From positions 1 through 23,253 of IMG/VR virus record IMGVR_UViG_3300049483_000201: a DNA stretch of 23,253 nucleotides, one strand, 5' to 3'. Position numbers and translations under genes: made by a program. Within the stretch, counting starts at the first letter, position 1. The number at the start of each line of letters is the position of its first letter. This DNA is from a virus. The notes beneath the pieces are model-generated. The model ran no database searches. It was given only the letters and a program-made list of their open reading frames with translations, and was not told the DNA's origin. This document shows positions 1-23,253 of the stretch, in pieces.

Positions 1-1843
1 TCTTATAGGCTTTAAGTGTATCAGCCGTTGCATTAAACACAATGGCTATCTTCAACTTGTCACCAACAACGAACGTTTCAGCAATGGAAGCAAGTTCACT
101 TGTTGATCCTGCCGAGGATTTATAGAATGCAGTGTGCCCCGCCCCGCTCGTCCCATCGGTGAATACTCCGTAGAATGAACCGCAACCAGTGTTTGCACTA
201 TCCCAAACCACCGCCGTGCAATACCCGTTACTTGTTGAAAAGGAACCAAGCTGGATCTCTGAGTATTGGTTGAGTGTTATACCATTCAGAGCTGAACCTG
301 TATATCGTATAGCAACATCCGTGTTGCTTGTTGAGGTATAGAGCGAATCACCAGTGACCGCCCAAGTACCATTATTTGCAGTCCATTCTGCGCTCGGACC
401 AGTAGCAAAATAATCGTAAGCAGAAACCCCCGTACCCGTACCCGTCGTGAAGCTGAACGTGCTTGACCATGAACTCGTACCACGGTAGTTAGTTCTCCTC
501 ACCCTCCAATAGTACGTCTTGCTTGGTGAAAGTCCACCGAAGGAAGCCGTGCCTCCCGTTGCAGTAATTGACGAGTCTTTAGTCAAAGCCGTGAACCCCG
601 TACCAACGGAATCTATCTGTATCCTATCTGAGACGAAGCCATACACCGCACCCGTTGACCATGTAAAAGTCGGGTTGAGAGACACTCCCGTTTGTGTATC
701 CGTCGGACCTATCAGCGTCACCGCTGATGGTAGAGCTAATGCCGAGTCATAAAAAGCTATCTTGCTATATACACCCGCATCACCGCCACGGTTGGATTGA
801 TACACGGTATCCGCTCCGGTTGCTCCTGCGGCATTATAGATTTTGTACCACGTGCTCATGTAAGTATCAGACCCGCCGATGTTTTGAACTCCTCTTTCCG
901 GCCCTGAGCGTGTCATCAGATTCGACCCTGGTACTCTCACATTGTTGGTGTCTGAGTTGTCATCCTGTGTGGCTCTGAAACTCAATACCACAGATGAGTC
1001 TTTGCCTGTTGTGATTGAAGGAGCAATCATCCTATAAGGTGCTGAAGGTGCTGTGAATGTCGCTGAGGCTTCATTTGCACTCAGCCCCCACGCGTGAGTC
1101 GTGTCGCATGGTCGGAAGACGTGGGCTGTGGTCGAGAACGGTGTACTTGTCCCACTGGTAGAAAAGTACGGACTAGTTGTCCATATCCCGTTGAATGTAG
1201 TGTACCATAACTGAGAATTAGCCGTAGTGCCTACGTCATCCCCCGCTGTCCATCTCTGCCCACCGTCAGAAGTCACCGAGAACGTCACGTTAGCTCTATC
1301 AAGGCAATACACTACCATCAAGTCCCCTCGTTGCATAGAGGTTACTGTTGGGCTCTGTGCTCCGTCACTACCAAGTACCGAGGCTGAATCTCCAAACCCT
1401 GCTTTGTAACCGAAGTATGATGGTTTGGTAGAACAAAGAACAATGTACGTCTTTGTCTTAAGTTCCCACTTCAACGAATAGGAGCTTGAGCCGTAACCAT
1501 TTGTGGCTCTTACGTGCCAGTAGTAGAACGTCCGTCCCGCGAGTCCTGAGAAACTTGCGCTCGTATCCGTGATTGAAGATGAATCCTTGAATGTAGAACC
1601 AAACGCAGGGTCATCGTCTATCTGAATTTGATAGCTTGTTGCCCCGCTTACCGTGTTCCACTTGAATTGGAGGCTGTTTGAATCCTGCTCAACGGCGAAG
1701 TTGATAGGAGATACCAATGTCGGTACTCCTGGAGGTGAACCGCCACCAGCCGAGAGATATGGGATAATCCTTCTCTGCCCGAAACAAACCGAAGAAACGA
1801 GAAGAAGAAGTATGATCTTATTCGTGTGTGAAGAAGCTAACAA
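1..1843 (-). CDS. Secreted FN3-domain protein, C-terminus beyond window edge
   Basis: This minus-strand frame is open from position 1843 to the left edge (614 codons), so the stop lies outside the window. An in-frame TAG about 15 codons upstream limits the start. I chose TTG at 1843, which has AGAGGG about 10 nt upstream. The N-terminus is a signal peptide (Asn-Lys, then IILLLLVSSVCFG before Gln23). Residues about 38-131 and 369-462 read as fibronectin type III domains (..FKWNTVSGATSYQIQID.. and ..TYYWRVRRTNYRGTSSW..). The last ~140 residues resemble a LamG/concanavalin-like beta-sandwich (NGTWAVTGDSLY). The start overlaps the tail-spike stop by 26 nt, so the two are probably co-translated. 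It is likely an adhesin or carbohydrate-binding tail-tip or cell-surface protein. The domain reading is by eye. Start choice is moderate; the presence of the gene is secure. Confidence 0.82.
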   Translation of the reverse strand, partial: MLASSHTNKIILLLLVSSVCFGQRRIIPYLSAGGGSPPGVPTLVSPINFAVEQDSNSLQFKWNTVSGATSYQIQIDDDPAFGSTFKDSSSITDTSASFSGLAGRTFYYWHVRATNGYGSSSYSLKWELKTKTYIVLCSTKPSYFGYKAGFGDSASVLGSDGAQSPTVTSMQRGDLMVVYCLDRANVTFSVTSDGGQRWTAGDDVGTTANSQLWYTTFNGIWTTSPYFSTSGTSTPFSTTAHVFRPCDTTHAWGLSANEASATFTAPSAPYRMIAPSITTGKDSSVVLSFRATQDDNSDTNNVRVPGSNLMTRSGPERGVQNIGGSDTYMSTWYKIYNAAGATGADTVYQSNRGGDAGVYSKIAFYDSALALPSAVTLIGPTDTQTGVSLNPTFTWSTGAVYGFVSDRIQIDSVGTGFTALTKDSSITATGGTASFGGLSPSKTYYWRVRRTNYRGTSSWSSTFSFTTGTGTGVSAYDYFATGPSAEWTANNGTWAVTGDSLYTSTSNTDVAIRYTGSALNGITLNQYSEIQLGSFSTSNGYCTAVVWDSANTGCGSFYGVFTDGTSGAGHTAFYKSSAGSTSELASIAETFVVGDKLKIAIVFNATADTLKAYK

Positions 1844-4800
1844 GCGCAGATTTCCCTCTTGATAATGGAGTTGACACACCTACCCATGTAAGCCTCAGTA
1901 GCTTCGCCGCTGTCAGGGTTGTCGAGTTGAGCGTCGCACCATACTGTACCCTTCTGCTCACGTTGTTACAAGTCGTGGTGTCTATGAGCGTCCCCGCCCC
2001 TTGAGTCAGTGAATCTACCATGTCTATCCTGAACGTCCCGACGAACCCTCTTCCAGTTGCATATCTGATTGAGTCAAGAGTACACGCCACGCCGATTGAA
2101 TAGATGGCGAGGGTATCGGTTGTCAAGCAAGTATCCACCATTGGATAAGAGAAGAGATTCTTGACCGTCGCCTTGGCTATCTTCCCGTCAAGCTGTGTCT
2201 GGATTGCACTTGTCACTCCATCAATATAGCTGAACTCCGACGAGTCCACGGCAGGAACGACCACCCTTGTATGTGAAGCGTCTCTCTGCCACAGCCAACC
2301 AGAGGACGGGCCTTCAAGGATTGGAACGATGGTGGTATCAAGCCCAAGCGTCACGGTGTTACCTGTGGTTCCCCTCGTTATCCCGTTTGAGACTGCAATG
2401 ATTGTGTCTGTGCCTGAACCTGTAATGAGAGACTTTGTATATGCGAGTAGTGCCGTTGAATCCGACCAGCCTAATTTACTTGCCTTGACGTAAGCCAAGA
2501 ATGTAGTAGAATCCGACATAGCTATCTTATTCGCCTTGACGTAGGCTAAGAAGGTGGTCGAGTCGCTCCACGAGAGTTTGGCGTTAGCTATTGACTTTGT
2601 GTAAGCGAGGAAAGTCGTACTGTCGGACATTGCTATCTTGTTTGCTTTAACATAAGCCAGAAATGTTGTTGAATCCGACCAGACAAGTTTCAAGTCAAGA
2701 AGGGATTTCACATAAGCTAAAAACGTCGTTGAGTCTGACCAACTCAAATCGCCTCCACCCGTAGGACTCCCCCAAGTCAAATCGCCCTTCAAGAAGTCAC
2801 CCGCGTGAGAGGTAGTGTCTGGCACTTTATACCGAATCCTCAAGATGTCTCCATCTATAACGAAGTCATCCGAGGTGTCTGGGGCTACTGACTGTGCCGT
2901 GATGTGTGAGTCTATCGAATCTCCAACGTGAGCCTTCGGGAGATTCAAGGCAATCAATGACTTCATGTAGGCATCGAAAGTCGTGGTGTCGCTCCAACCC
3001 AACTTCGCACTAATAAGGCTCTTTGAATAGGCAAGGAATGTAGTTGAGTCACTCCATGAAAGTTTTGCATTGGCAATAGACTTGGTATAGGCAAGGAATG
3101 TCGTACTATCCGACCAACCGAGCTTACCGGAAATGTCAGACTTCACCTTTGCAAATGCCGTTGTCGTATCAAGTGAAGCCGTGACAGCGTTCCCTGTCTG
3201 TGTCCATGTGAACATATTGAGATTGTGGAAGCGTAGCGAGTCCCCAGCCGTCGAGCTACCATCAACAGACCAAGAGAATCCTCCACCACCCGTGTTGTCC
3301 GTTCCCACTACCCATTTGCCCGATCCTGTGTTGTACTTAATGACTGAGCCATTAACCTTGCCCGTAGTGTCCACATCGGTTAATCCGCCGAATGTGCCGG
3401 AACCGCCAGCAGGTAGATTGCCGTAGGCACGGGCGTAGATGCTGTCGGCGGTGAGAGTATTCCAGTTTGAATTCCCCGTATATTCGTCTATAAGAGTCAT
3501 TGTTTCATCGTGGTTTCGCAAGAACGTACTATCCCCAAGAGTAATAACGCCAGTATTGCTAATACCAAAGATAGCTTTTGAGCCAGCATAATCTGTGAAC
3601 TGTACCGAATAACCGCCCCATCCTGGACGTATTTGTAATGAGGCTCCATCTGTACCACGAATATAATCTCCGATGTTCACAACCCCCTGGAGTGTAATAG
3701 TGCCAGCACCGGTTGAGTTTATCTTATCAAGATTAACCGCCCTAACTCTTATTGAATCATAATTGGCGGTTGATGCGCCACCGCCGATCTTCACTACTCG
3801 GAATGATGCGGAGTCACCAACGACATTGTTCCCCAATAATTGCTTAGTAGTATTGGGCATATATTTGTAAAGAGTGTCCTGGATTGTTTCACCAACGACG
3901 AGGTCGTTAACTGCCCTCTGGTCTATCGTATCACTTTGAAAGGTCATATTGGAAATAATTAGACTATCCCCGGTAGTTAAAGAGCGAGTCCCGTTACTAA
4001 TTAAAAGCCCTTCAAAAATTGCAGAATGGAAACTGCAATCAATAAATCGTTGGTGAACCGTTGCAGGCAGAGCAGGAACCCCAACAATAGCTCCTCCACC
4101 CCCATCCGAACCACGACCAAGATGTTCAAAATTACATTTAATCCATTCCCCTCTACCATTTGCTCCAGCAGATACACAGGATTGATAATAGGCACTTCCT
4201 CCAGAATCTATAAATGAACAATTAAAAGCATAGATACTATATGTCCCTGCCAATGAGACAGGAGAACCCGTAAAGCCTCCATGTTGAAAAGAACCAGTCT
4301 TAAAGGTTGAATTGTAAAGAAAAATAATCCCACCGTCTTCAGTCTCTATGTTATGTAGTCCGGCAACATTAGGAACATTTACCAAGAAATTACAATTTGC
4401 AACTATCAGCGTTGAAGTCGAATCAGCACAGGTAAGTTGTCCATGTTGCGAGCCGCCACTTTCGTGGATGTAAATTGTGGACGTATCATAAGCTGTGATC
4501 TTCTGGAGTAAGTGGTTCACTACAATGTCTGCGCGGGAACTACCCCAAAGTCTCAAGAGTTCTCCTGTTTGTGTCCCAGGTGAGACATAAAAACTATCCG
4601 CCCTAATTGTTAGATTAGCTCCCCCCGCTACCGTCCCGATGATTGTGCGGATAGACCTAAAATTCAATATCATTGTTCCACTTGTGTCTATTATTTGAGC
4701 GGTCATTACATCCCCCGCACAGGAGACATATCCCCCGTTTTGCTGAAGAACTCCTCCGATCTCCACCCCAGAAATAATAACAGTATCACCCTCAACAACA

Positions 4801-5153
4801 AAAAGATTCCCCGCAAGGCGTGTATTCTGGGATGAATGTAAATAAATTCTCTTCCCAAATGTAATATCTTCGGTATAGGTAGCTCCGAACAGTTCTACCA
4901 CATCCCCACTACTCGCCGCACTCACCGCCTCTTGTATCGTCTCATAGTACGGTGCAGCCAAGCCTGAGTATGTCGGGCTGACGTAGAGGGTCTTCTGGGG
5001 GGAAGTGCGTGCCAAAGCAACAGAGGCAGAGTCCCGTGCTATCTGGTCAACCGCACTCGCTCCCTGCACGTTTGTTTTCTTCATCAACCCCTTCGTCTGG
5101 CCAAAGAGCATCCCTGCCGAAAAAATCAGCATCAATACAAGTAATCGTTTCAT
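1818..5153 (-). CDS. Secreted beta-helix tail spike/fibre with internal peptide repeats
   Basis: This 1111-residue protein starts at an ATG preceded by GGGGAG. Residues 1-19 are a signal peptide (MKR, hydrophobic core, LFG before Gln19). Residues about 54-420 have the look of a right-handed parallel beta-helix: a YVSP...ETIQEAVSAASSGDVVELFGATYTE opening followed by many short N/G/S-rich strands, as in pectate-lyase-fold spikes. Residues about 678-912 hold nine repeats of a WSDSTTFLAYxKS unit. Near residue 970 is DSSEFSYIDGVTSAIQTQL, a common phage tail-fibre motif before the C-terminal domain. The likely role is receptor binding or polysaccharide depolymerisation at the tail tip. No catalytic residues can be assigned. 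The signal peptide is unexpected for a protein that should be assembled onto virions in the cytoplasm. The beta-helix part (about 3850-4850) looks more AT-rich than its flanks, compatible with domain exchange. Confidence 0.85.
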   Translation of the reverse strand: MKRLLVLMLIFSAGMLFGQTKGLMKKTNVQGASAVDQIARDSASVALARTSPQKTLYVSPTYSGLAAPYYETIQEAVSAASSGDVVELFGATYTEDITFGKRIYLHSSQNTRLAGNLFVVEGDTVIISGVEIGGVLQQNGGYVSCAGDVMTAQIIDTSGTMILNFRSIRTIIGTVAGGANLTIRADSFYVSPGTQTGELLRLWGSSRADIVVNHLLQKITAYDTSTIYIHESGGSQHGQLTCADSTSTLIVANCNFLVNVPNVAGLHNIETEDGGIIFLYNSTFKTGSFQHGGFTGSPVSLAGTYSIYAFNCSFIDSGGSAYYQSCVSAGANGRGEWIKCNFEHLGRGSDGGGGAIVGVPALPATVHQRFIDCSFHSAIFEGLLISNGTRSLTTGDSLIISNMTFQSDTIDQRAVNDLVVGETIQDTLYKYMPNTTKQLLGNNVVGDSASFRVVKIGGGASTANYDSIRVRAVNLDKINSTGAGTITLQGVVNIGDYIRGTDGASLQIRPGWGGYSVQFTDYAGSKAIFGISNTGVITLGDSTFLRNHDETMTLIDEYTGNSNWNTLTADSIYARAYGNLPAGGSGTFGGLTDVDTTGKVNGSVIKYNTGSGKWVVGTDNTGGGGFSWSVDGSSTAGDSLRFHNLNMFTWTQTGNAVTASLDTTTAFAKVKSDISGKLGWSDSTTFLAYTKSIANAKLSWSDSTTFLAYSKSLISAKLGWSDTTTFDAYMKSLIALNLPKAHVGDSIDSHITAQSVAPDTSDDFVIDGDILRIRYKVPDTTSHAGDFLKGDLTWGSPTGGGDLSWSDSTTFLAYVKSLLDLKLVWSDSTTFLAYVKANKIAMSDSTTFLAYTKSIANAKLSWSDSTTFLAYVKANKIAMSDSTTFLAYVKASKLGWSDSTALLAYTKSLITGSGTDTIIAVSNGITRGTTGNTVTLGLDTTIVPILEGPSSGWLWQRDASHTRVVVPAVDSSEFSYIDGVTSAIQTQLDGKIAKATVKNLFSYPMVDTCLTTDTLAIYSIGVACTLDSIRYATGRGFVGTFRIDMVDSLTQGAGTLIDTTTCNNVSRRVQYGATLNSTTLTAAKLLRLTWVGVSTPLSRGKSALVSFFTHE
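2418..3122 (-). repeat. Nine 17-20-residue peptide repeats inside the tail spike
   Basis: Nine copies of a [LI]xWSDSTTFLAY[TVS]K unit (17 or 20 residues; two copies have AMSDS) run in two blocks of three and six, separated by a non-repeat stretch of about 60 residues. The peptide is nearly invariant, but the codons differ between copies at almost every synonymous site. For example, the first Ser is TCG, AGC, TCC or TCA, and the Thr and Leu codons vary just as freely. Such heptad-like repeats usually form a trimeric fibre stalk. This is inference from composition. Confidence 0.9.
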
Positions 5154-5173
5154 CTTTTCTCCCCTTTAGGGAT

Positions 5174-6085
5174 TTACGAGAACAAAGCAGCCCAAGCACT
5201 AAGTAAGATTTCACCTGAACCGTGGAACCTAATCGTCCCGCCCTTGTCAACATCACCGTCAATCATCGGGTCAGCTACCGCACCGAGAATATCGGCACAG
5301 GTAATAACAACATTGTCCATGAGCGCGAACTTGCAATCCACTGAAGCGTACTGGTTGAACGTGTCAAGCACCGCCAGCGAAGTCGGGGACAAGTCCATCA
5401 CGTCAACGGAGTATTCAATCAAGACGGTATTCCGTGGGATGTACCTACCCTCAGAATCTTCGTCACACTGAAGCGTGGCTGTGAAGTTCGCATCCTTGAT
5501 AGGACCAAGAGACTCGTAGGTGTCAACGCCTTGAACGGAGAATGTCTTAATGCCCGCCGGCGAGCGATACGCCGCACCCGTGAACAGTCCACCATCGCCC
5601 GCAGAGGTGAATGTTGACCAGATGATGTCGTTGTCAATGATAGAAGAAGTAGCTGAAGCTATCACTGCTGTGCGCTTCAGCATCATCTCAACATATCTAT
5701 CCTCTGAAGTATTCCCACCAATGACAAGCCGCCACTTCGGGACTCCGTTATGTCCAACCGTGCTATTCCCAAACACAACCACATCGCCGTTGATGAGGTT
5801 GAGGCTTGAGTTGTGGAATCCACCGGCCCAGTTTGCAAGCAACGGAAGGTTCGTTCCATCCATGCGATGATACCGCCAGCTCGCTTCGGCTGTGATCGCA
5901 TGAGCTTTCTCCCGTCCGTGCTGATCTTTGAGAAAGCTGTGAGACTGCGTGAACTTTGTCTCACTGAGGTCGGATATGGTCTCCGAGTAGTTCCCGCCCG
6001 AACTCCAATCCGTTACCACGCTCGTAATCCCGCAAGGAAGGTTGTTTGCGGGGAGCGGAGAAGAGAATCCAAATGTTGCTGCCAT
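5174..6085 (-). CDS. Phage structural protein, unknown (303 aa)
   Basis: ATG at 6085 is preceded by AAAGGAG, and the stop lies 20 nt before the tail-spike start. The 303-residue product has no signal peptide, no membrane segment and no motif I can name. It is rich in beta-type sequence (DRYVEMMLKRTAVIAS, NTVLIEYSVDVMDL, GGTIRFHGSGEILLSAW). Its place between a baseplate-like protein and the tail spike supports a tail or tail-tip role. No major tail tube gene sits in the usual place before the chaperone, so this protein is one candidate for the tube or for a spike-anchoring adaptor. That is inference only. The gene itself is well supported by its start signal and tight spacing. Confidence 0.85.
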   Translation of the reverse strand: MAATFGFSSPLPANNLPCGITSVVTDWSSGGNYSETISDLSETKFTQSHSFLKDQHGREKAHAITAEASWRYHRMDGTNLPLLANWAGGFHNSSLNLINGDVVVFGNSTVGHNGVPKWRLVIGGNTSEDRYVEMMLKRTAVIASATSSIIDNDIIWSTFTSAGDGGLFTGAAYRSPAGIKTFSVQGVDTYESLGPIKDANFTATLQCDEDSEGRYIPRNTVLIEYSVDVMDLSPTSLAVLDTFNQYASVDCKFALMDNVVITCADILGAVADPMIDGDVDKGGTIRFHGSGEILLSAWAALFS

Positions 6086-6097
6086 GATGTTGCTCCT

Positions 6098-6961
6098 TTA
6101 GTTAGTCCACGATGAAGGCAGGGCTGAACCTAAGAGCCGAGCCGTTTTTTCTTTCAGTTCCAAAGAGTAATGCTTACTCGTTATAGTGTTATTCACCCTG
6201 TCAACGGGGAAACTGTTTACCGTTGAAATCACATCTAATGTTTCATTGTCATACGTCACCTGTTGAGTCGAGGCGAAGGCGAACTCTCTCAGGAACAACT
6301 GGTCTGCCGAATCCTGAAGAACACCCAAGTCTATCGAGATGTTTCTTGTCGTTGCGACTGTCGGGGTCTTGTAATGACTCCCATCAAGCAACTGCTCAAC
6401 CTCGGACTGCGGGAATCCCTCTTCGTTCTCTGGATTGTCGAAGCCGGCGATGTGGAGTTCGTTGAATGTCTTCGATGTGGTTGCTATCTCTATCTTGTCA
6501 AGGTAAATCTCCATATTCAACGACTTACTCACCGCAACCTTCAACCCAATAGAAATTACGGCTGTGAGTGCAGTCATGCTTGGCAACGTCAAGGTCACTT
6601 GTTTCCACGTATCGGCAGTGAGGGTCTCGTTTATGTCAACCGTTACGAGATGACTATTTCCGTTAGCACACTCCTCGTCATCGTCAATCAGGAATTGCAA
6701 ATCATTGGCATCGAGATTGTCCTGGCTTCGTATCCAGAACCGAATGCTCGTTGCAGCCGATAAATTCATTGCGCTGATTGCCCTTGTCCCGACAATGCCG
6801 GTAGTGAAGCTATCAGTGATGGCAAACTTGGACGAATACAACCCCCACTTCCGGTATGTCGAATCGGCTGTGTGGGTGACGTAAGTGATAGGCTCAAGCT
6901 CATCGAAGGCACTCTCACAGTCAAACACCGAACGAGGGCCGTATATCAAGGTTACGCTCAT
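6098..6961 (-). CDS. Tail-associated protein with carbohydrate-binding-like N-terminal domain
   Basis: The 287-residue ORF starts with an ATG that overlaps the stop of the upstream 500-residue gene (ATGA), so the two are translationally coupled. Residues about 25-165 read like a jelly-roll carbohydrate-binding or galactose-binding domain: KWGLYSSKFAI, SIRFWIRSQDN, DTWKQVTLTLPSMTALTAVISIGLKV and a closing MEIYLDKIEIA strand are typical of CBM-like beta-sandwiches. The C-terminal ~120 residues are not recognised. A tail tip or baseplate protein with a glycan-binding module fits the position between the hub-like protein and the spike. The domain call is by eye and its family is uncertain. Confidence 0.8.
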   Translation of the reverse strand: MSVTLIYGPRSVFDCESAFDELEPITYVTHTADSTYRKWGLYSSKFAITDSFTTGIVGTRAISAMNLSAATSIRFWIRSQDNLDANDLQFLIDDDEECANGNSHLVTVDINETLTADTWKQVTLTLPSMTALTAVISIGLKVAVSKSLNMEIYLDKIEIATTSKTFNELHIAGFDNPENEEGFPQSEVEQLLDGSHYKTPTVATTRNISIDLGVLQDSADQLFLREFAFASTQQVTYDNETLDVISTVNSFPVDRVNNTITSKHYSLELKEKTARLLGSALPSSWTN

Positions 6962-8460
6962 AGTTCAGTCCACCTGATTTTGCATTTATTGGTAAAGACG
7001 TTTTTGGTAATGTCTGTGGCGTAATAAGTCTTAGCTGACACACCATCATCTATACTCGTACAAGCAGTCAAAAAGATAAGTGAGTGGGTTGTATCCCCGG
7101 AATATGTCCCCTGAATAGAAACATACTCCCTATCAATCCAACGGCTTCGCCTTGAGAACTTCTTAAAGAGATATTTCGCCAAAGCAAAAGCGTAGATGGT
7201 GTTAGTCCCAAGGTATGCGCCAAATTCATAGTCCCAGTATTTCGCTGTCGTGATAGGCTGCATTGCCGCACCATCCGTTGAACCCCAGAACACCCACTGA
7301 AGCCACGTGAAGTCAACGAGATTGATGAGATATGGACTTCCAAAAAGTATGTCTTGGGATATGTCAAACTTGACTCCCGGAGGACTATACAAATCAGCAG
7401 AGAACCCCTCTATTGTTTTTGTCTTCCATGCGCTTTGTTGGAACACATCGTTGATAATCACGCTACTGGAAACCGAGTCCGAGTTTATCCCCATCTCCGA
7501 AGAGATTGGCGTGGGGAGTGTTATTGGAGTCCCCTGATACGATTTCCCTCTTGTCGTAAAGCGAATCTTCCACCTTGAGGAAGCTATGTCGTAAATGAAG
7601 TTCGGCAATACGGCAAAGGTTCTACATAAATCGCCTAACACTTCATACCCCGATTCGTAGTCCTGTTGGAGTCTTACTGAGTACCCCCATCTAACCCATC
7701 CACCCACCCCGGAATCGTACTGGAACGGCATATACAATTCGTCAAACACGTATGGAATTGGCGCACCCGAATACGAATACTCGTACACGAAATCATTCCC
7801 GTCACCGAGATACTCAATATCTGTAAGGCCGAATGATGGATTAAGCCCCGAACGAAACAGCATTGCAGAGAATATCGAGTTGAATGAAACCATCTTAATC
7901 CCCGGAGCGTAGCCCCACCCGCCACTTGTCGGCCTTACCAAGTGATTGGTTTCAAGATAATCCAGGAGATCGTTAAGGTCGAGTTCCTGAAGTGCCGTTA
8001 TCATGCTTATACAGCGGAACTCTCCCTGCCTTATGATTGCATCATCCACCAAAGACAATTCCCTGAGAACGGGGGTCTTATCCAAGAGTTTACCCCAGAA
8101 GAAAAGCGTATCACCTGCACCTTCGTCAAGCAAAATCTTTAACTGGAACACCTCTCCGTTTAATCTGTTGAACCAAAACCCATCCTGTTCCATCGAGTAG
8201 TCTTCGTAGTATCTAAACGCCATCTCTGGGACTTGTATCTCAAACGGGATGAGGTCTATGCGTTCATTCAACTCACCGTCAACGATAAGGTTTGTATTCC
8301 CCGATGGCGGGTCAGCAATATCAGTAATGAGATAGACTTTGAGCAATCCCGCGGGCAACCAAGTCCGCTGAATCAAGTGCGTGTAGGTCGTTGTCGCGGT
8401 ATCCCCCTGCGGGAAGTCCGCCACATCATTCGCATTATCGTATAGAATTGGAACTATCAC
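6958..8460 (-). CDS. Tail-tip/baseplate hub-like protein (500 aa)
   Basis: A GTG start at 8460 overlaps the stop of the upstream gene as GTGA, and its own stop overlaps the next ATG. The 500-residue product is rich in aromatic residues and beta-strand, without a signal peptide or membrane helix. Long-tailed phages usually encode the distal tail and tail-associated hub proteins soon after the tape measure. The size and position (second gene after it) fit a hub or tail-associated protein that opens the tail tip and carries the receptor-binding proteins. No catalytic motif such as a peptidase or lysozyme is visible. The functional call rests on gene order. Confidence 0.78.
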   Translation of the reverse strand: MIVPILYDNANDVADFPQGDTATTTYTHLIQRTWLPAGLLKVYLITDIADPPSGNTNLIVDGELNERIDLIPFEIQVPEMAFRYYEDYSMEQDGFWFNRLNGEVFQLKILLDEGAGDTLFFWGKLLDKTPVLRELSLVDDAIIRQGEFRCISMITALQELDLNDLLDYLETNHLVRPTSGGWGYAPGIKMVSFNSIFSAMLFRSGLNPSFGLTDIEYLGDGNDFVYEYSYSGAPIPYVFDELYMPFQYDSGVGGWVRWGYSVRLQQDYESGYEVLGDLCRTFAVLPNFIYDIASSRWKIRFTTRGKSYQGTPITLPTPISSEMGINSDSVSSSVIINDVFQQSAWKTKTIEGFSADLYSPPGVKFDISQDILFGSPYLINLVDFTWLQWVFWGSTDGAAMQPITTAKYWDYEFGAYLGTNTIYAFALAKYLFKKFSRRSRWIDREYVSIQGTYSGDTTHSLIFLTACTSIDDGVSAKTYYATDITKNVFTNKCKIRWTEL

Positions 8461-9137
8461 GATAAACTCGGTATTGTATATTCTTCCCAGAGGACGCTTA
8501 CCCAGTAAGAGTTAGTCGTCGGGTTGTCGCCTGCCGCAGCCGCCGATATATTCACGCCAAGACACTGGTTCTCATTCAACACAAACGGGCTTCCAGCAAC
8601 AAGTTCTATCTCGCTGAAGGATTGACCAACAAGAGTGTGCAACCTCATACCGCGTACTTTTCGGAGAATGGTAGTCCCCGTATAAGACAACCCCGTACCA
8701 GAAGAAGTATCATCGGCACTCGCATCCCCAATTACGAGAACATTCGCATCGCTTGAGAACGCACTATTGTCAATGGTCTGCTTTGTGAGCGATGTCCCAT
8801 CAGAAGGAGCGGTCCCACGTCCAACCGTAAACGATATGGCTCGACTTGTGAGAACTGCGGTTGCATCCATCCCGACACGGATAGACGAAACGCCGACAAG
8901 AACACCCGTCCCTGTTGCGTTCTCAATCGTGAAAATAGTCTGGGCGGCGGCAGCCCTCCCCGGAGTGACAAAAGTTGAGACTATCCCCCTATTGGTAATT
9001 ATCCTCTCTTCCTCTAACACAACAAGCTGTGCGTGAACATCTGTCCCGCCTACGCTACGCTTGCGGAATGAGAGGTACTTACCCGTGTTGCTGGTATCGT
9101 CAGCAAGCCGTACTTTTGCAACTGTTGTAAGTGACAT
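8457..9137 (-). CDS. Tail structural protein, unknown (226 aa)
   Basis: The ATG at 9137 shares its A with the tape-measure stop (TAATG), and the stop overlaps the next GTG (GTGA), so this is a coupled gene in the tail operon. The product is almost entirely small, beta-prone residues (TIFTIENATGTGVLVGVSSIRVGMD.., TGTTILRKVRGMRLH, NSYWVSVLWEEYTIP), consistent with a compact beta-sandwich virion protein. I do not recognise the family. Directly after the tape measure one expects a distal-tail protein, which is possible. Because no tube gene precedes the chaperone, a displaced tail tube is another option. Confidence 0.8.
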   Translation of the reverse strand: MSLTTVAKVRLADDTSNTGKYLSFRKRSVGGTDVHAQLVVLEEERIITNRGIVSTFVTPGRAAAAQTIFTIENATGTGVLVGVSSIRVGMDATAVLTSRAISFTVGRGTAPSDGTSLTKQTIDNSAFSSDANVLVIGDASADDTSSGTGLSYTGTTILRKVRGMRLHTLVGQSFSEIELVAGSPFVLNENQCLGVNISAAAAGDNPTTNSYWVSVLWEEYTIPSLS

Positions 9138-10675
9138 TAGAGCTTCCTCAGATTTTGTATTTGCCTTGCCTTATCAAGAACGAGGACTAAGTTCTGTCCC
9201 TTTACTTCAAATTGACCAGTAACATTCACAGAACCGCCCCCACCACCCCTTGACAATCTCGATTGCCTCATTGGGGTAACGTCTATTCTCTCCGGACCGC
9301 TTTCGCCTACCAAGGCCATACCCCCACGTGACGGAATAAGTGCTGGCCCTCTCGTAATAAAGGAACCACCCGAAGCATAGCCGCCTATGCCAAGTTCACT
9401 CATCAATCCCCCCGTGGCGATATTAAGCCCCAACTGAAGGAATATACCAAGTATCTGATCGCCCAAATCCTTTCCAAGCCCCAGTGACTCCCTTAGCGCA
9501 CCACCGATGCTTGAGGATATGGCGTGTCCGGCACTACGGGCAGCGGAGGAGATATAGTCGAAGGTTTTCTCGGATTCGTCTTTCTCTTTCATCCACGAAT
9601 TAGCCTTGTCAACTTCTTCTTGAAGCGTCCCAAAAGCTATCCCCTGTCCACCAACACCGGACTCTCCCATTTTAGGAATATTAAATTGCCCCGCCAAACC
9701 ACGATCAAACCCCGATTTACCAAGCGAAAACGGACTCCCACCACCAAAATATCTCTCCGCGTATCCTTCATTGATTGCTTTAATGGTATCAAGCTCATCC
9801 TGAGAAATCTTGGCAATCTTTTCTGCTGTCTCAGCCTTCTTATCAAAAATCTTCATCAGTGTGTCAACCGAACTTTGCGCCCCCTTCCATTCACCATAGG
9901 CGGTTAGTTCATCTGCGCTCGGCTTCATTTGTATGTCGTGACCATACGCTTTAGCGTCTGCAATAGCCTTTAATCTTGGACCACTCAATCTTTCATAAGC
10001 CGCTTTTTTGCTCGTAATTAAAGCCTGACCAGCACTTAGTGCGCTTAAAATATCTCCCCCCGGCACACCAACCGCAGCACTCGCGGCGGCGAAAGCAACA
10101 TCTTCATAGGAGCGCGTTAATTTCTCGTTCGATTCTTTTGCTTTTTCTGCCTCTCTTGCAGAATTGGCGAACCATTGAGTCAACAACTGCAACCCGCTTG
10201 ATGCAAGCGAGATACCAAGGAGAATCCCCATCGGCCCCTTGATTGCTTGTCCAATAGCGGTGAACATTGCACTTGAACTGCCAGCCTTCTGATGGAGAAG
10301 AATGAGTTGTTGAGACAAATACTCCACGTTGTTCGCAACAGCGCGAAGTCCCTGCCCGAATCCCATCGAGAACTGAGCGGAATCCTGAAACGCCTGAGAC
10401 AAAGATACAACCGCAGGAGTAGCCCTTGAGCGGAGTTCTGTACCAAGAGCGAAGTACGACTCCTTCATCTGGGCATTAGATGAAAGGGTGACTTTAGTAA
10501 GACTGGCTACTTGATCTTTCAGAGAAACTATTGATGCCCCAAGTTCCTTTTGTCGTGGGATGTTATCAACAGAAAGACCAAGGAACTCCTTGTTGAGTTT
10601 CTTGATCTCATCCTTTAACTTCTGGATTGTTGGACTTCCAGATACGCTAACTTGTAGTTTTATCTCGTCAGCCAT
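9137..10675 (-). CDS. Tape measure protein
   Basis: This 512-residue protein begins MADEIKLQVSVSGS immediately after the stop of the tail-chaperone frameshift product. The N-terminal ~130 residues are helical and coiled-coil-prone (IQKLKDEIKKLNKE). Residues about 148-170 form a hydrophobic segment (ILLGISLASSGLQLL). Near residues 408-445 is a second hydrophobic, Gly-rich stretch. The C-terminus has GGSFITRG...ALVGESGPERIDVTP, a signature seen at the end of many tape measure proteins. In assembly it sets tail length, is wrapped by chaperones while the tube polymerises, and is ejected with the DNA. At roughly 0.15 nm per residue the tail would be about 75 nm. The order chaperone, frameshift product, tape measure is the classic long-tailed layout. 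Confidence 0.92.
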   Translation of the reverse strand: MADEIKLQVSVSGSPTIQKLKDEIKKLNKEFLGLSVDNIPRQKELGASIVSLKDQVASLTKVTLSSNAQMKESYFALGTELRSRATPAVVSLSQAFQDSAQFSMGFGQGLRAVANNVEYLSQQLILLHQKAGSSSAMFTAIGQAIKGPMGILLGISLASSGLQLLTQWFANSAREAEKAKESNEKLTRSYEDVAFAAASAAVGVPGGDILSALSAGQALITSKKAAYERLSGPRLKAIADAKAYGHDIQMKPSADELTAYGEWKGAQSSVDTLMKIFDKKAETAEKIAKISQDELDTIKAINEGYAERYFGGGSPFSLGKSGFDRGLAGQFNIPKMGESGVGGQGIAFGTLQEEVDKANSWMKEKDESEKTFDYISSAARSAGHAISSSIGGALRESLGLGKDLGDQILGIFLQLGLNIATGGLMSELGIGGYASGGSFITRGPALIPSRGGMALVGESGPERIDVTPMRQSRLSRGGGGGSVNVTGQFEVKGQNLVLVLDKARQIQNLRKL

Positions 10676-11268
10676 TTACTTCTTCCAGTTGTCTGAATCG
10701 TTGCACCATGAATCGTACCTTTGGAACGACTGTCTAATCATTACGTCCGAAAGCGTCAGGTTGTCCATGATGTAATCAAAATCCTGTTGACTCTTTGCTA
10801 AACTCCATACTGCAAACAACGTCTCATACTTCGATGGGAAGGTATGAGGTTTTAATTGGCTTTTGGTGCTGAATCTTGAGAACTCTTTAACGCAGCGAGC
10901 CGCTGTTTCATTTGGCTGGCTGCATCGAAAAAACCCTTGCGAATATCCTCAACCTCCCATTCGAGCATATTAGACAAGTCCTTGATATGGTCGTCTGGAT
11001 TCTCGAACACTAAATCACAATATCTTGTCCATAATGGCTGGAACTTTGAGCACAGGTCTCTATCAAAAAGTATTTTGAGCATTGTCGGCTCGACCATCCT
11101 CTTGACAGACTTGGACTCTTCTTCATCCCAAACCTCGGACTCTACCTTACCAATAACATCAGCCATCTCGGAATCCAAGTCACCGACTTCCCAAACAAGC
11201 CCAATCGTAGGCTTCTTGAATTTGTATTCCTTGCCATCTACCGTGATTGTTAGTCCCTCTATTTCCAT
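10676..11268 (-). CDS. Tail assembly chaperone GT-type fusion via -1 frameshift (predicted)
   Basis: Within the chaperone gene the -1 frame stays open through the zero-frame stop and ends with TAA at 10678-10676, directly abutting the tape-measure ATG. A heptamer T_TTT_TTC (10933-10927) in the zero frame (Gly-Phe-Phe) is a textbook X_XXY_YYZ slip site. Slipping there joins the first 114 residues to 83 new ones (RCSQPNETAA...SDNWKK), giving about 197 residues. The extension has ordinary protein composition (YETLFAVWSLAKSQQDFDYIMDN) and no good independent start. In lambda-type phages the GT fusion binds both tape measure and tube subunits. The coordinates cover both frames; the shift itself is predicted, not observed. 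Confidence 0.75.
10852..11268 (-). CDS. Tail assembly chaperone, G-type zero-frame product
   Basis: The 138-residue acidic, helical protein starts at an ATG overlapping the previous stop as TAATG. It opens with a beta-type stretch (GLTITVDGKEYKFKKPTIGLVWEVG) and continues with amphipathic helices (WDEEESKSVKRMVEPTMLKILFD), which is typical of tail assembly chaperones placed just before the tape measure. It would coat the tape measure during tail assembly and be absent from the finished virion. About 24 codons before its stop lies the slip site that produces the longer fusion. The family was not confirmed by search; position and the frameshift make the role convincing. Confidence 0.82.
   Translation of the reverse strand: MEIEGLTITVDGKEYKFKKPTIGLVWEVGDLDSEMADVIGKVESEVWDEEESKSVKRMVEPTMLKILFDRDLCSKFQPLWTRYCDLVFENPDDHIKDLSNMLEWEVEDIRKGFFDAASQMKQRLAALKSSQDSAPKAN
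10927..10933 (-). promoter_or_regulatory. Predicted -1 ribosomal frameshift slip site TTTTTTC
   Basis: Read on the minus strand in the zero frame as GGT TTT TTC, the heptamer T_TTT_TTC allows both Phe tRNAs to re-pair after a -1 shift. The downstream -1 frame is open for 83 codons up to the tape measure start. No obvious strong hairpin was identified just downstream. Confidence 0.75.
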
Positions 11269-11681
11269 TAGTCCATCACCTCAGATAATTGTGGATTCGT
11301 GACATCTCCGTACCAGAACAACGCCCCTGCCATCAATTCAGTAATCCAATCTACATCCTCATCCTGGAACATGACGAACGGCCTCGGTACTAAGTTCCGC
11401 GGGGCATAACCAAACTGTTGTGCGAAGGCATAAGGTAATCCAGCACCAAAGCCTATCGTGACACTCTCCGAATCATAGGTATAATCACCCGACCTCAAAA
11501 GGTTCCCCGACTGGAAAAGAAAGGACGGGCCGCCACGCTTTAACGGCATCCATGTATTCGGCCTTCCACCCTGACCGAAGTTCTCACGGATTGAGCCTAA
11601 CATCCTCTCACCAATGAGAGCCATCTGCTGAGTCCAATCCTCCCTGACTTGAGGGATTTTTGTTATCTGGACTTCAATCAT
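11268..11681 (-). CDS. Phage virion morphogenesis protein (Mu gpG / P2 gpS-like tail completion)
   Basis: The 137-residue product is coupled to its neighbours (ATGA upstream, TAATG downstream). The central part FGQGGRPNTWMPLKRGGPSFLFQSGNLLRSGDYTYDSESVTIGFGAGLPYAFAQQFGY contains the hallmark order of the virion-morphogenesis family. It has a W-x-P motif, then an L-x-x-S-G-x-L segment, a strand-rich core, a Y-A-x-x-Q-x-G stretch, and PRPFV near the end. These proteins finish the head-tail junction or tail so that heads and tails can join. Placement between the presumed terminator and the chaperone agrees. The motif match is by eye but strong. Confidence 0.82.
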   Translation of the reverse strand: MIEVQITKIPQVREDWTQQMALIGERMLGSIRENFGQGGRPNTWMPLKRGGPSFLFQSGNLLRSGDYTYDSESVTIGFGAGLPYAFAQQFGYAPRNLVPRPFVMFQDEDVDWITELMAGALFWYGDVTNPQLSEVMD

Positions 11682-12208
11682 TCGGGTGTCTCACCTCTCA
11701 AGTTCACATCCTTGAAGAAGGAATTGATGACTGCCTTAATCCCAAACATAGACATGAGATTCCCCGCTTTGTCTGTTTCAACCCATCTGTCTATTTGAAA
11801 CCCCACACCATCAACAGGAGTAACCAACTGCCATCTATTGCTTCCGCTCGCTATATGCTTGATAGCGAGGTCAACCAAAACTCTCTTAACGTCATGGAGA
11901 AACTCTTCCCCAGTTACAGTCATGGGGTATTCGCTTTCACTCGGAGTTGAGACTTTGAAATACCCTATCAATCCAAGCTCGACCTCGGAGTTCCACACGG
12001 TCCTGTTTATGTTTTTGTTTACCATCCTCTCTTTGCCAAAAAGGATGTCCAGTTGAGGAAATTCTACCATCTTACTCGCACCGGAATAGACGGTATTAAC
12101 CTTGTGTATAATCGTCCTGAAGGCTACTCCGTTAAGCGTATTAGCTGTGTTGATCTGCTCGAAAGCCGTGACCAACTCATCCCTGATTATTTCAACCGAT
12201 GATCTCAT
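11678..12208 (-). CDS. Probable tail terminator / head-tail joining protein (176 aa)
   Basis: ATG at 12208 overlaps the previous stop (TAATG) and the stop overlaps the next start (ATGA). The 176-residue protein starts with a helix (VEIIRDELVTAFEQI) followed by a long strand-rich region (NSEVELGLIGYFKVST). It then has a second helix (EEFLHDVKRVLVDLAIKHI) and closing strands (VGFQIDRWVETDK..AVINSFF). This helix-beta-helix-beta pattern is that of lambda gpU/HK97 gp10-type tail terminators, which cap the tube on the head-proximal side. Gene order supports the call; sequence similarity could not be tested. Confidence 0.72.
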   Translation of the reverse strand: MRSSVEIIRDELVTAFEQINTANTLNGVAFRTIIHKVNTVYSGASKMVEFPQLDILFGKERMVNKNINRTVWNSEVELGLIGYFKVSTPSESEYPMTVTGEEFLHDVKRVLVDLAIKHIASGSNRWQLVTPVDGVGFQIDRWVETDKAGNLMSMFGIKAVINSFFKDVNLRGETPE

Positions 12209-12576
12209 TAGTGAAACACCGCTACATAGTGAGGTGCAGTAGAGCCTGTGTACTTAATCCAGAACTTGTTGATATAGACATCATCAGCGAACACTCCGGT
12301 CTCTCCGGGGATTATCGGGATCAAATACCCCGTATCAATGGCGTTCTTCGTTGAAGTCGTATCATTGTTGTACGACAACCAAAGAGTATCAGAGGTGCTT
12401 GTGCCATACACCACGACATTCAGCCAGACTATCTTCTGCGTGAATGCCGCATCTTTCCCTCTGGCTATCCACGAAGTCGTTGCCGTGGTATCTACAACGT
12501 ATTTCCTCGATGCCTGAGAAAACCCTATACAGGGGATGAAAAGTAACAGGAGTAATTTAGCGAGTGAGCGGTACAT
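12208..12576 (-). CDS. Small secreted beta-rich protein (122 aa)
   Basis: I place the start at ATG 12576, which has GAGGA 7 nt upstream. Longer readings of the frame run far into the connector gene and would bury the signal sequence. The start gives MYRSLAKLLLLLFIPCIGFS followed by Gln21, a Sec signal peptide obeying the Bacteroidota Q-rule. The mature ~100 residues are beta-prone (IVWLNVVVYGTSTSDTLWLSYNND, NKFWIKYTGSTAPHYVAVFH). The gene overlaps the connector stop by 20 nt and ends in TAATG with the next gene. It recalls the secreted protein after the capsid gene in size, style and Tyr/Thr content. Possible roles are a surface or periplasmic factor, or a decoration-type protein; nothing settles this. 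Confidence 0.8.
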   Translation of the reverse strand: MYRSLAKLLLLLFIPCIGFSQASRKYVVDTTATTSWIARGKDAAFTQKIVWLNVVVYGTSTSDTLWLSYNNDTTSTKNAIDTGYLIPIIPGETGVFADDVYINKFWIKYTGSTAPHYVAVFH

Positions 12577-13183
12577 TGGTCGTCCTCGGTCTGTATTGTG
12601 CAAAAATCTCTTCCCATCGTAAGTTGAGGTCAAGATATGAGACATTCCCGCCGATATTCCCGCCAGCGGCTTCGGCTTGCTTGCCGAGTCTATCACCTTG
12701 CGTCTTTGCCTCATCCCACATATTTTGTACTGCCTCAAGGCATACCTTTGTCAACGGTGCTGGTATGTCTGTCCAACCGGCAATATAGGTTATCTTGATA
12801 TTCTTCTGCCCTATCGGAAAGACTAATCCCCCTAAAAGCTGCAGTCGCGGTTCTTCACCTGTGCCAAAATTCAGATACTCAATTGAATCAAGAAGATTCG
12901 TCCACAACGGGGCATCGGTAAAGGAACTCCGGTATTGGAGATTATCAAGGCTGTCATCAAGAAGACTCACCGGCATATAACTTGTGGAAAGATAGGGAGT
13001 CCCATCGCCGTCAAGATATTCAGTAACGGATTGGGCGGCTATTTTCGTCCCTACCCTTTCCTCCATCCAGCCGGAAATAATGTCAATGAAATACTCAAGA
13101 GCGGTGTCCGTGGCGGTGGTTGCCGACGCACCAAGGTAGAGCTTGAGATTTCCAAGCGTAACAATCGAACGCGCTGTTGCCAT
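12557..13183 (-). CDS. Head-tail connector protein, gp6/gp15-like
   Basis: The 208-residue protein starts at ATG 13183 after AGGAAAG. It is mostly helical, with an N-terminal TLGNLKLYLG...LEYFIDIISGWMEERVG region. Residues 133-141 (YIAGWTDIP), followed by APLTKVCLEAV, match the recurrent 'Y-x-A-G-[YW]-x-x-I-P-x-x-[LI]' motif of HK97 gp6/SPP1 gp15-like connectors. Those proteins form the ring under the portal that receives the tail. Its position after the capsid genes and before tail-completion genes fits. The 3' end overlaps the next gene by 20 nt. Confidence 0.85.
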   Translation of the reverse strand: MATARSIVTLGNLKLYLGASATTATDTALEYFIDIISGWMEERVGTKIAAQSVTEYLDGDGTPYLSTSYMPVSLLDDSLDNLQYRSSFTDAPLWTNLLDSIEYLNFGTGEEPRLQLLGGLVFPIGQKNIKITYIAGWTDIPAPLTKVCLEAVQNMWDEAKTQGDRLGKQAEAAGGNIGGNVSYLDLNLRWEEIFAQYRPRTTNVPLTR

Positions 13184-13201
13184 ACTCTTTCCTGAAATAT
13201 A

Positions 13202-13219
13202 GGGGGAGTTGCCTCCCCC
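13202..13219 (-). other. GC hairpin with GCAA tetraloop between virion genes
   Basis: On the minus strand the sequence is GGGGGAG-GCAA-CTCCCCC, a perfect 7-bp stem closed by a GNRA-type tetraloop. It sits just after the secreted-protein stop (13226) and before the connector RBS. No T-run follows, so it is more likely an mRNA-stabilising or partial-termination element than a full terminator. Confidence 0.6.
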
Positions 13220-13225
13220 GTTTGT

Positions 13226-13666
13226 TTACCTCTTCTGGACGATTTTCTCGTACACCGTAGGGGTTGTAACACCAAGCCTGAACGCCTGGATGACCCTCAC
13301 GAATCTAATGGCTCTCAATCCACTCGCCCCGGAAGGGACAAGGAAGGATTTCGTGTTAGCCGTTGCCGTACTCATTGAGTCAATAAGCACGGGTGCGAGA
13401 TATGTAACACCGTCATAACTTGGCTGATAGTACACAAGCGTTGACAGGCTATCCAGAGCGTAAACATTGTAATACGTCTGGAGATACTGGTCAACATTAA
13501 CAGCCTGCATTGTGTCGGTGATACCGCCGGTTGAATCGTGCGCCCAAGACGAATACGTTGTACCCGTCCTAAAATGCCGAGCCGCAGTCACGTAGGAACG
13601 CATCTGAGCCTCAGCAAATACTGATACAACCATCAAGAGGGCGATTGCCAATGTGATTCTTTTCAT
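13226..13666 (-). CDS. Secreted beta-rich protein following the capsid gene (146 aa)
   Basis: The start at ATG 13666 has a perfect AGGAGGG ribosome site, which decides it over an upstream ATG in the capsid tail. The product begins MKR, a hydrophobic core and FAEA before Gln22, a clear Sec signal peptide with Q-rule ending. The mature ~125 residues are beta-prone (STLVYYQPSYDGVTYLAPVLID, LRAIRFVRVIQAFRLG). Phages often place a decoration or accessory head gene immediately after the major capsid gene, and this gene occupies that slot. A cleavable signal peptide would however send it out of the cytoplasm. It could be a surface or periplasmic protein made at capsid-like levels. Function unknown. 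Confidence 0.85.
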   Translation of the reverse strand: MKRITLAIALLMVVSVFAEAQMRSYVTAARHFRTGTTYSSWAHDSTGGITDTMQAVNVDQYLQTYYNVYALDSLSTLVYYQPSYDGVTYLAPVLIDSMSTATANTKSFLVPSGASGLRAIRFVRVIQAFRLGVTTPTVYEKIVQKR

Positions 13667-13680
13667 GGTTATTCCCTCCT

Positions 13681-14619
13681 TTAGTTTGCACCAACAGATG
13701 AAGCGCACTTGCCTTGGATTTGGTTGTTTGCGTCAATCGTGTCGAACACAATCAACGAATACCACCCGACGTTGATGAAGCGAGCCAACTTGTCAAACGG
13801 GCCGGTGATTCGTACTTCAAACATCCCCGCCTGACTTGCTCTCTTCGCCATACCAAGGGCGTTGAACCCGACAACATTGATCGTGTAGCCGTCAATCGTA
13901 CCGTTCACGTTTGAGGTGACGGTAGCATTGCCGGAACGCAACCAACGGATTCCCTTATACATCCCAATCTCTCCGGTCAACACAGATGCAAGGTCGGTGT
14001 ACTTGGAAACATCCGTCCATGCACCGTTTGCCGTATCTTCTCGGAGATCGTGGAGGCAATCGTCGTGAGCGATTCCGAAGTACGTCCCGCCAACAAGACC
14101 CGGTGTGTTGGCACGCGCCAGCTTGTTGTAGAGCCGTCCTGCGAATGTCTTGTCAAGAACGTCTGCCGTGGTGAGGTTGCCTACTGCTGTTGCTCCGTTG
14201 GGATAGATCGTCGTTCCGCCGAACGCATCGAGAGCCGTGATAGCACGGTAATCGAGTGTCTGTCCTGCGTTACGAGCAACCAACTGAGCCGCAGCAACGT
14301 CAACCTTTCCACCCGTCTGGAAAGAGCCGAGAGCGGTCTTCGTGACCACCAAGCCCTCTTCTGCCGGGGTGAGTGTTACCGCACTATCAACAAGAGTCAC
14401 GGAGTCTGGATCAACCCCATCACTCAAAGCCGATGGAACGGCGAGATTGCTGTACTTTGAAAACTGCATTGATTTGCCATTCAGTTCGCCGTCAATGTTG
14501 GCTACCTGTGTGGCAACGAGTTCAGGCGTTGAGAGCAAAGTAACCAGAGTGCTAAACTCCAGTACGATGCTATCGTCAACGTCTCCGACCTTCATAATGC
14601 CGGTTGTGAAGTCTGCCAT
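13681..14619 (-). CDS. Major capsid protein, HK97-fold (N4 gp56-like family)
   Basis: The 312-residue protein starts at an ATG with AAGGAAG upstream. Its pattern matches the N4 gp56-like capsid group: an early N-terminal helix (FSTLVTLLSTPELVATQ), then DGVDPDSVTLVDSAVTLTPAEEGLVVTKTAL, a helical spine (VAAAQLVARNAGQTLDYRAITALDAF), LTTADVLDKTFAGRLYNKLARANTP, and a C-terminal GPFDKLARFINVGWYSLIVFDTIDANNQI. It lies after a scaffold and before the connector. It forms the icosahedral shell. The family assignment is from motif memory; the capsid role itself is close to certain from context. Confidence 0.88.
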   Translation of the reverse strand: MADFTTGIMKVGDVDDSIVLEFSTLVTLLSTPELVATQVANIDGELNGKSMQFSKYSNLAVPSALSDGVDPDSVTLVDSAVTLTPAEEGLVVTKTALGSFQTGGKVDVAAAQLVARNAGQTLDYRAITALDAFGGTTIYPNGATAVGNLTTADVLDKTFAGRLYNKLARANTPGLVGGTYFGIAHDDCLHDLREDTANGAWTDVSKYTDLASVLTGEIGMYKGIRWLRSGNATVTSNVNGTIDGYTINVVGFNALGMAKRASQAGMFEVRITGPFDKLARFINVGWYSLIVFDTIDANNQIQGKCASSVGAN

Positions 14620-20934: not shown

Positions 20935-21147
20935 ATGAACCTGCCAACATTCCACAACAGCCAACAGGCCATCAACTTTGGCCTACTTGCCACGGAGGAG
21001 GAGCGCGAAGCACTTAGAGAACGGCGGGAACTTACCATCGCTGAGGGGCACGTCTTCGGCCTCAAAGGACAGACTCAGGAAGCAATTAACAGGTTTACAG
21101 CGGCTCAGTTTGACCGTGAAGCCCTGGAAGCACAACCGCTTGCCTGA
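20935..21147 (+). CDS. Small early protein, unknown (70 aa)
   Basis: ATG 20935 is preceded by CAGGAGGGGAAC, a strong ribosome site, which itself follows two copies of a CCAAAAAACAG motif (20895-20925). The product is helical and charged (TEEEREALRERRELTIAEGHVFGLKGQTQEAINRF). No known family is recognised. It is flanked by hairpins on both sides. Confidence 0.75.
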   Translation: MNLPTFHNSQQAINFGLLATEEEREALRERRELTIAEGHVFGLKGQTQEAINRFTAAQFDREALEAQPLA

Positions 21148-21150
21148 CGA

Positions 21151-21185
21151 GTCCCAAAGGACGAAACGGCTCAACTCGGAGCCGT
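21151..21185 (+). other. Intergenic hairpin pair 3 of the early cluster
   Basis: GTCC-CAAA-GGAC (21151-21162) is followed by ACGGCTC (21166-21172) pairing perfectly with GAGCCGT (21179-21185) around AACTCG. It lies right after the 70-residue gene and before the GGAGG ribosome site of the next gene. No T-run is present. Confidence 0.55.
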
Positions 21186-21215
21186 AGCAAGCTAACCAAA
21201 AAAGGAGGCTACACA

Positions 21216-21482
21216 ATGAAAGCACTACACGAAGCAAAAACAGGGAACCACCAGGGGCTTATCATGGATTCTAATGGCCGCAACGTGGCAGTAGTCTATG
21301 AGAAGGAAGATACCCCTGCAATCGTAACCGCCTGCAACTGCCACGAGGAATTGCTGGAAGCACTCAAGGGGCTACTCTATACCTTGGATGAGCAACTTAC
21401 AGAGGACGCACAGGAAAACGAGGACATTATTGAAGCACAAAACAACGCCCGTGCCGCAATCCAAAAAGCAGAGGCCTTGTGA
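21216..21482 (+). CDS. Small phage protein with CNCHEELLEALKGLL motif (88 aa)
   Basis: ATG 21216 follows AAAAAAGGAGG. The N-terminal half is strand-like (LIMDSNGRNVAVVYEKEDTPAIVTACN). The second half contains HEELLEALKGLLYTLDEQ...NNARAAIQKAEAL. This layout is that of a widespread group of small phage proteins whose middle reads '..APELLEALK.LL' and which end in '..AR.AI.KA'. Their function is not known. Its stop overlaps the GTG of the next gene. Confidence 0.82.
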   Translation: MKALHEAKTGNHQGLIMDSNGRNVAVVYEKEDTPAIVTACNCHEELLEALKGLLYTLDEQLTEDAQENEDIIEAQNNARAAIQKAEAL

Positions 21483-23105: not shown

Positions 23106-23253
23106 ATGAGAGAGATTAAGTTCCGAGCGTGGAATGCCACAAACGAGACGATGTGTTATCTTGACCCGCTCTATTGGCCCCTTATAGCAATAAACAGTAG
23201 TGAGAATTGGTTTGTCATGCAATACACCGGCTTGAAAGACAAGAACGGGAAGG
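23106..23253 (+). CDS. YopX-family protein, truncated by window edge
   Basis: ATG 23106 follows GAGGGTG. The first 49 residues open MREIKFRAWN and later read FVMQYTGLKDKNGK, the two signature stretches of YopX proteins, which are common small proteins in phages and prophages. The function of YopX is not established. The 3' part lies outside the window. Confidence 0.88.
   Translation, partial: MREIKFRAWNATNETMCYLDPLYWPLIAINSSENWFVMQYTGLKDKNGK

Follow-up and report, generated by a model that had tools for sequence, protein, structure and literature searches.

Q-rule signal peptides on four virion-block proteins of a tailed phage and a possible late decoration of its particles

Why should proteins encoded among the virion genes of a tailed phage begin with the kind of leader that sends proteins out of the cytoplasm? 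The question is raised by a 23,253-base viral contig (IMG/VR record IMGVR_UViG_3300049483_000201; the whole stretch is called the window here), in which the late genes all lie on one strand and include those for terminase, portal, a scaffold-like protein, major capsid protein (MCP), head-tail adaptor, neck, tape measure and tail. The terminase, portal and capsid genes mark the window as a tailed double-stranded (ds) DNA phage. A first-pass annotation had reported that four products of this virion block, starting at 13666, 12576, 5153 and 1843, carry leaders ending in AEA/Q, GFS/Q, LFG/Q and CFG/Q (the slash marks the cleavage site), and all four are present as it described. Their lengths are given below in amino acids (aa).

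P0001, 13226..13666, minus strand: 146 aa, with a 20-aa Q-rule leader (bases 13666-13607) and a 126-aa mature part
P0002, 12208..12576, minus strand: 122 aa, with a 20-aa Q-rule leader (bases 12576-12517) and a 102-aa mature part
P0003, 1818..5153, minus strand: 1111 aa, with an 18-aa Q-rule leader (bases 5153-5100)
P0004, 2..1843, minus strand: at least 614 aa, the 3' end lying past the contig, with a 22-aa Q-rule leader (bases 1843-1778)

All four have the anatomy of Q-rule substrates of Sec and signal peptidase I (SPase I), namely a basic n-region, a hydrophobic h-region, a small residue at -1, a permitted one at -3 and Gln at +1. The leader of P0001 is MKRITLAIALLMVVSVFAEA/Q, with AAAGGAGGGAATAACC upstream of its ATG; that of P0002, MYRSLAKLLLLLFIPCIGFS/Q, has the ribosome-binding site GAGG, and that of P0003, MKRLLVLMLIFSAGMLFG/Q, has GGGGAGA. 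P0004 begins at a TTG behind AAGAGGGAA and its leader is MLASSHTNKIILLLLVSSVCFG/Q. A plausible ribosome-binding site stands immediately before each leader, so the leaders are translated. Lipoproteins processed by signal peptidase II were ruled out for all four, there being no lipobox ([LVI][ASTVI][GAS]C) at the cleavage sites. The P0001 gene lies between the MCP and adaptor genes, and no family match was found for its product. The start of P0002 overlaps the adaptor gene by 20 bases, and beta strands are predicted for its mature part in a low-confidence model; the AlphaFold single-sequence models of P0001 and P0002 (mean pLDDT 39 and 54) are too poor for use. The P0003 gene is the penultimate one in the tail block and encodes an N-terminal beta-helix-like part followed by repeated SDSTTFLAY shaft segments, a tail-fibre-like build. 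P0004 matches FN3 domains (PF00041) and phrog_6977, a minor tail protein. In the gene order of the window these two large proteins stand at the end of the tail module, as a receptor-binding protein or tail fibre would.

The leaders were ranked with a home-made signal score for the n-, h- and c-regions, which ignores the +1 residue and is uncalibrated against SignalP. On this scale P0001 scores 15.7, P0002 about 12-15, P0003 15.0 and P0004 11.4, while almost all other genes in the window fall below 8; a minus-strand open reading frame at 20983-21225 reaches 12.1 and has no Q site. For P0003 the score slightly favours a site 4 residues downstream of the /Q site, which is within tolerance, alternative sites scoring similarly. 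Q-compatible leaders are rare in the background, at 12 of 1291 genes from relatives of the terminase (score of at least 10), 3 of 1028 from relatives of the MCP (threshold 9.5) and 6 of 733 from 11 named Bacteroidota phages (threshold 9). The chance of finding four or more among the 19 virion-block genes is then 2.6e-5, 2.7e-7 and 1.6e-5, respectively. The four leaders are real and non-random. Mis-called starts or chance hydrophobic N-termini would be the dullest explanation, to which the home-made predictor and the TTG start of P0004 lend something; set against ribosome-binding sites abutting every leader, a chance of about 1e-5 and conservation in relatives (below), an artefact is scarcely credible.

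Conservation was best followed in distant relatives of the portal protein. A search with the window portal of 395 genomes, from the phylum of a metagenome-assembled genome titled Bacteroidia bacterium, gave two of these, at 26-27% identity, and a second search with that relative as query matched 12 of 294 genomes of its class. They led to a phage-like cluster, a locus of 14-15 kb with terminase, portal, scaffold, capsid, connector and tail genes, holin-like genes and a GH19 endolysin. At its tail end, before the holin-like and endolysin genes, is a gene for an adhesin of 446-447 aa with a Q-rule leader. When 44 genomes of the order were searched, further prophages proved to carry the adhesin family also, one of them (G309:C20) a transposable phage that encodes a transposase and a head maturation protease, another (G493:C24) with an integrase, and there the adhesin gene lies downstream of tape measure, hub and ~175-aa genes. 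The adhesin has no match in Pfam, PHROGs or viral contigs and no convincing entry in PDB.

A Gln at +1 is possible in all 12 adhesin copies from cluster and prophages; in prophage G472:C99 the family-aligned /Q site is five residues past the site printed by the script. Across five aligned cluster copies identity is just 22% in the leader columns, 85% over the next 29 mature residues and 71% over the mature protein as a whole, and /QFTSLPIRLV is invariant. Leader letters that drift around a fixed cleavage chemistry are what selection on export and cleavage would leave behind, and for the relatives' adhesin there is good support both for export and for a cut in front of Gln. The same columns bear on the suggestion, made in the first-pass annotation, of an uncleaved, membrane-anchored stage. 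Hydrophobic segments certainly exist, and could serve as a membrane anchor or a hydrophobic tail tip, but it is only when cleavage matters that one expects an invariant +1 Gln, a small -1, a permitted -3 and a mature start that never varies. That suggestion is accordingly disfavoured, and we consider an uncleaved N-terminus very improbable.

Identity between the mature parts of cluster and prophage copies declines from the N to the C terminus through 48, 40, 30 and 18%. This N-conserved, C-variable pattern is the one expected of a receptor-binding protein, in which a putative docking part is conserved and the part for recognition varies. The cluster adhesin is under purifying selection, with a ratio of nonsynonymous to synonymous substitution rates (dN/dS) of 0.05-0.11 where dS is not saturated.

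What might such leaders do for a phage? Tailed-phage particles form in the cytoplasm, so exported parts would meet them only when the envelope breaks. In the explanation that we prefer, the window virus would infect a Bacteroidota-type host and make four late proteins, two small ones encoded next to the capsid and adaptor genes and two large, adhesin-like ones encoded at the tail end. P0001-P0004 would be exported through the host Sec pathway, SPase I would cut just before Gln, and the Gln would presumably be capped as pyroglutamate by a host glutaminyl cyclase. The exported proteins would fold outside the cytoplasm and the heads and tails would assemble inside it. Once holin and endolysin open the cell, the two sets would meet and dock, the adhesins at the tail tip, perhaps via their conserved mature N-terminus, and the small proteins on head or neck. 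For the window virus we infer export and cleavage, docking on the virion and the timing at lysis from sequence. Taken whole, the chain of Sec export, SPase I cleavage and late attachment to particles at lysis stands at a little under an even chance.

Part of the appeal of late attachment lies in a likeness of layout. In prophages G309:C20 and G472:C99, four further Q-rule leaders come directly after the neck and connector genes, on proteins of ~160, 157, 690 and 158 aa, and the adhesin stands at the tail end; the third leader protein of G472:C99 needs a start earlier than the gene caller's choice. The adhesin of G489:C281 and G493:C24 has another Q-rule protein directly behind it, as P0003 has P0004. 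Window and prophages thus share leaders near the adaptor or neck and an adhesin at the tail end. As no homology links the prophage leader proteins to P0001-P0004, this is a likeness and not proof of descent.

Several results weigh against late attachment. No homology was found between P0001-P0004, which are candidate virion components, and the leader-bearing proteins of G309:C20 and G472:C99. In the 294 genomes of the relatives' class P0001 and P0002 gave marginal partial matches and no convincing homologue in which their leaders could be compared. The beta-helix part of P0003 (residues 51-141) is present at 40% identity in a leaderless G507 prophage fibre, and at 37-39% in exported host proteins with a leader (G464, G457). 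In five prophages of the host class with related terminases, whose tail modules were poorly resolved by the gene caller, no Q-rule leader was found near the terminase. Virion-block leaders are therefore common in some lineages and not universal.

The two kinds of P0003 relative mean that its leader may have been captured from a host gene. More broadly, the leaders might be hitch-hikers, brought in with adhesin modules captured from exported host proteins and neutral or merely tolerated since; P0003, with its module shared by leader-bearing host proteins and by the leaderless G507 fibre, speaks for this. A neutral leader would be lost, however, and here it is kept in 12 of 12 cluster and prophage copies, with its letters diverged and its Q fixed, which makes hitch-hiking improbable. 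The first-pass annotation had proposed looking for conserved leaders in homologues and asked whether leaderless relatives exist. The G507 fibre is such a relative of the P0003 beta-helix part, P0001 and P0002 had no convincing homologue, and conserved leaders were found in the adhesin of the portal relatives.

Exported proteins might also never join a particle. The main rival to late attachment has them as periplasmic or surface proteins co-expressed with the virion genes, with a role in superinfection exclusion, in masking of the receptor or in release from the surface of the cell. It explains conserved signal peptides without assembly in two compartments, it matches the published reading of Q-rule genes in Porphyromonas gingivalis phages (PMC10367356), and the protein adjoining the cluster endolysin combines a Q-rule leader with a tail for the type IX secretion system (T9SS). 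The adhesin family, on the other hand, has the design and tail-end position of a receptor-binding protein and persists in a domesticated particle cluster. A T9SS C-terminal sorting domain (e.g. PF18962) was not matched in P0003 or in the cluster adhesin, the C-terminus of P0004 lying past the contig end, and a periplasmic stay is thus likelier than T9SS display. The rival is a substantial possibility, if on balance a doubtful one. The N-conserved, C-variable design and the missing sorting domain lead us to lean towards late decoration.

Of the claim that the four products are routed out of the cytoplasm, then, export is supported in so far as their leaders are real and non-random and leaders of this kind are conserved as signal peptides in the nearest testable relatives. 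Biofilm-matrix attack and receptor masking, also put forward in the first-pass annotation, found no specific support. A wider proposal, that some Bacteroidota tailed phages and an element resembling a gene transfer agent make a two-compartment particle, whose receptor-binding proteins and small decorations would mature outside the cytoplasm by way of Sec, SPase I and pyroglutamate formation and join the heads and tails at lysis, is offered tentatively, as possible rather than probable.

The cluster deserves a closer description. It occupies the following loci in six genomes.

L179/L205, in G309:C29
L180/L201/L202, in G274:C1
L196/L203/L204, in G415:C13
L198/L206, in G409:C119
L195/L207, in G472:C194
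L197/L208, in G463:C34

The six share the same flanking genes on at least one flank, and three of them on both; their capsid proteins are 89-94% identical, dN/dS is 0.02-0.19 where not saturated, and there are no integrase or replication genes. The cluster is thus inherited vertically, stays at a single locus and is under purifying selection, which makes it a candidate gene transfer agent; no literature report of such an agent was found for this Bacteroidota-type class. Next to its endolysin, and conserved in at least three genomes, is a Q-rule protein that carries both BNR/YCF48-like repeats and a Por secretion tail (PF18962; L179:16697-17989, L180:5413-6702). Among the flanking genes in the relatives' host class, a Q site occurs in 17 of 43 signal-bearing genes, and 10 are lipoprotein-like.

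The structural genes that anchor the window are these.

17525..18769, minus strand: terminase large subunit (phrog_2, E 2.1e-33)
16116..17537, minus strand: probable portal protein, from position and homology to the phrog_533 portal in relatives (26-27% identity)
13681..14619, minus strand: major capsid protein (phrog_1357, E 1.9e-31)
12557..13183, minus strand: head-tail adaptor (phrog_442, E 1.5e-14)

As single queries in IMG/VR, portal and terminase had one match, to what is practically the same virus, on a contig of 9.9 kb that ends short of the leaders; relatives of P0001, P0002 and P0003 were not found there, and P0002, P0003 and the portal had no match among the named phages. L001 (IMGVR_UViG_3300048672_000868) is practically the same virus, 99.98% identical over 9214 bases, and adds ~650 bases past the window end at 23253. 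L263:1201-2361 and L264:496-1626 are 32-33% identical to the window terminase and adjoin large genes that encode exported proteins; no phage genes are obvious downstream of them.

The background sets held leaders of their own. Structural genes of terminase relatives in viral contigs are mostly without them; terminase relatives share a protein of 125 aa that begins with a Q-rule leader, contains a VEFWADW motif and by eye resembles thioredoxin. In phages with related capsid proteins, a protein ~10 kb downstream of the capsid gene combines a classical signal peptide with long stretches rich in Thr. These long signal-bearing proteins were set aside as not comparable, coming from another kind of phage. 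In the named Bacteroidota phages Q-rule leaders are scattered, and the only fibre-like carrier is in Flavobacterium phage FCL-2 (L176:45363-45806), a small protein with the leader MKTIVITLLLSISTYS/QVGIATTTPTETLDVNG and, the phage being named and cultured, a convenient test case.

125-aa VEFWADW protein: L009:596-973, L018:193-570, L025:1077-1454, L075:1917-2294, L081:662-1039
Thr-rich proteins with a signal peptide: L100:19260-20747, L166:19797-20745, L105:19933-20834, L123:20051-20834, L097:12626-13201

Tailed phages are taught as assembling wholly in the cytoplasm, and conserved Sec leaders on tail-end adhesins would place the host-recognition parts outside it. If this is true, host export, signal peptidase and glutaminyl cyclase become infection factors. 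Virion-block Q-rule leaders would be a simple marker for exported adhesins in Bacteroidota phages with proteins that lack family matches; the domesticated cluster offers a setting for a genetic test of the idea.

How does this compare with known systems? Like the receptor-binding proteins and fibres of tailed phages, the proteins discussed here have a tail-end position, a conserved N- and variable C-terminal part (in the relatives) and shaft-like repeats (in P0003). To our knowledge, however, synthesis and attachment of the known ones both take place in the cytoplasm and no signal peptide is present, and the G507 prophage fibres likewise lack one, unlike the window's tail-end proteins; conserved Sec leaders on receptor-binding proteins of tailed phages did not turn up in our search of the literature, which was incomplete in coverage. 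In papers on contractile injection systems the term 'signal peptide' denotes a loading signal and has no bearing here. The coat proteins of filamentous phages (Inoviridae) belong to the virion and also depend on Sec and signal peptidase, but these are single-stranded DNA phages extruded through the envelope, whereas the window is a tailed dsDNA phage. Predicted signal peptides, one or two per phage, occur in rumen Bacteroides phages (PMC5723332). The Q-rule itself has been described with a mean Q-value of 71% in Bacteroidetes and 77% in Ignavibacterium album (PMC5837995), and capping of Gln by glutaminyl cyclase raises the stability of exported Bacteroidota proteins (PMC10653852). The SPase I substrates covered in these two papers share the leader anatomy and +1 Gln, and are host exported proteins, not phage ones. 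There is precedent for phage-encoded Q-rule proteins, since phages of P. gingivalis (proposed family Nixviridae) have five Q-rule genes, of unknown function, for which host surface modification was suggested (PMC10367356). Those phage genes too have Sec leaders exposing a +1 Gln in a Bacteroidota host; they were read as host-surface modifiers, whereas here the leaders lie inside the virion block, tail-end adhesins included, and their conservation has been tested in relatives.
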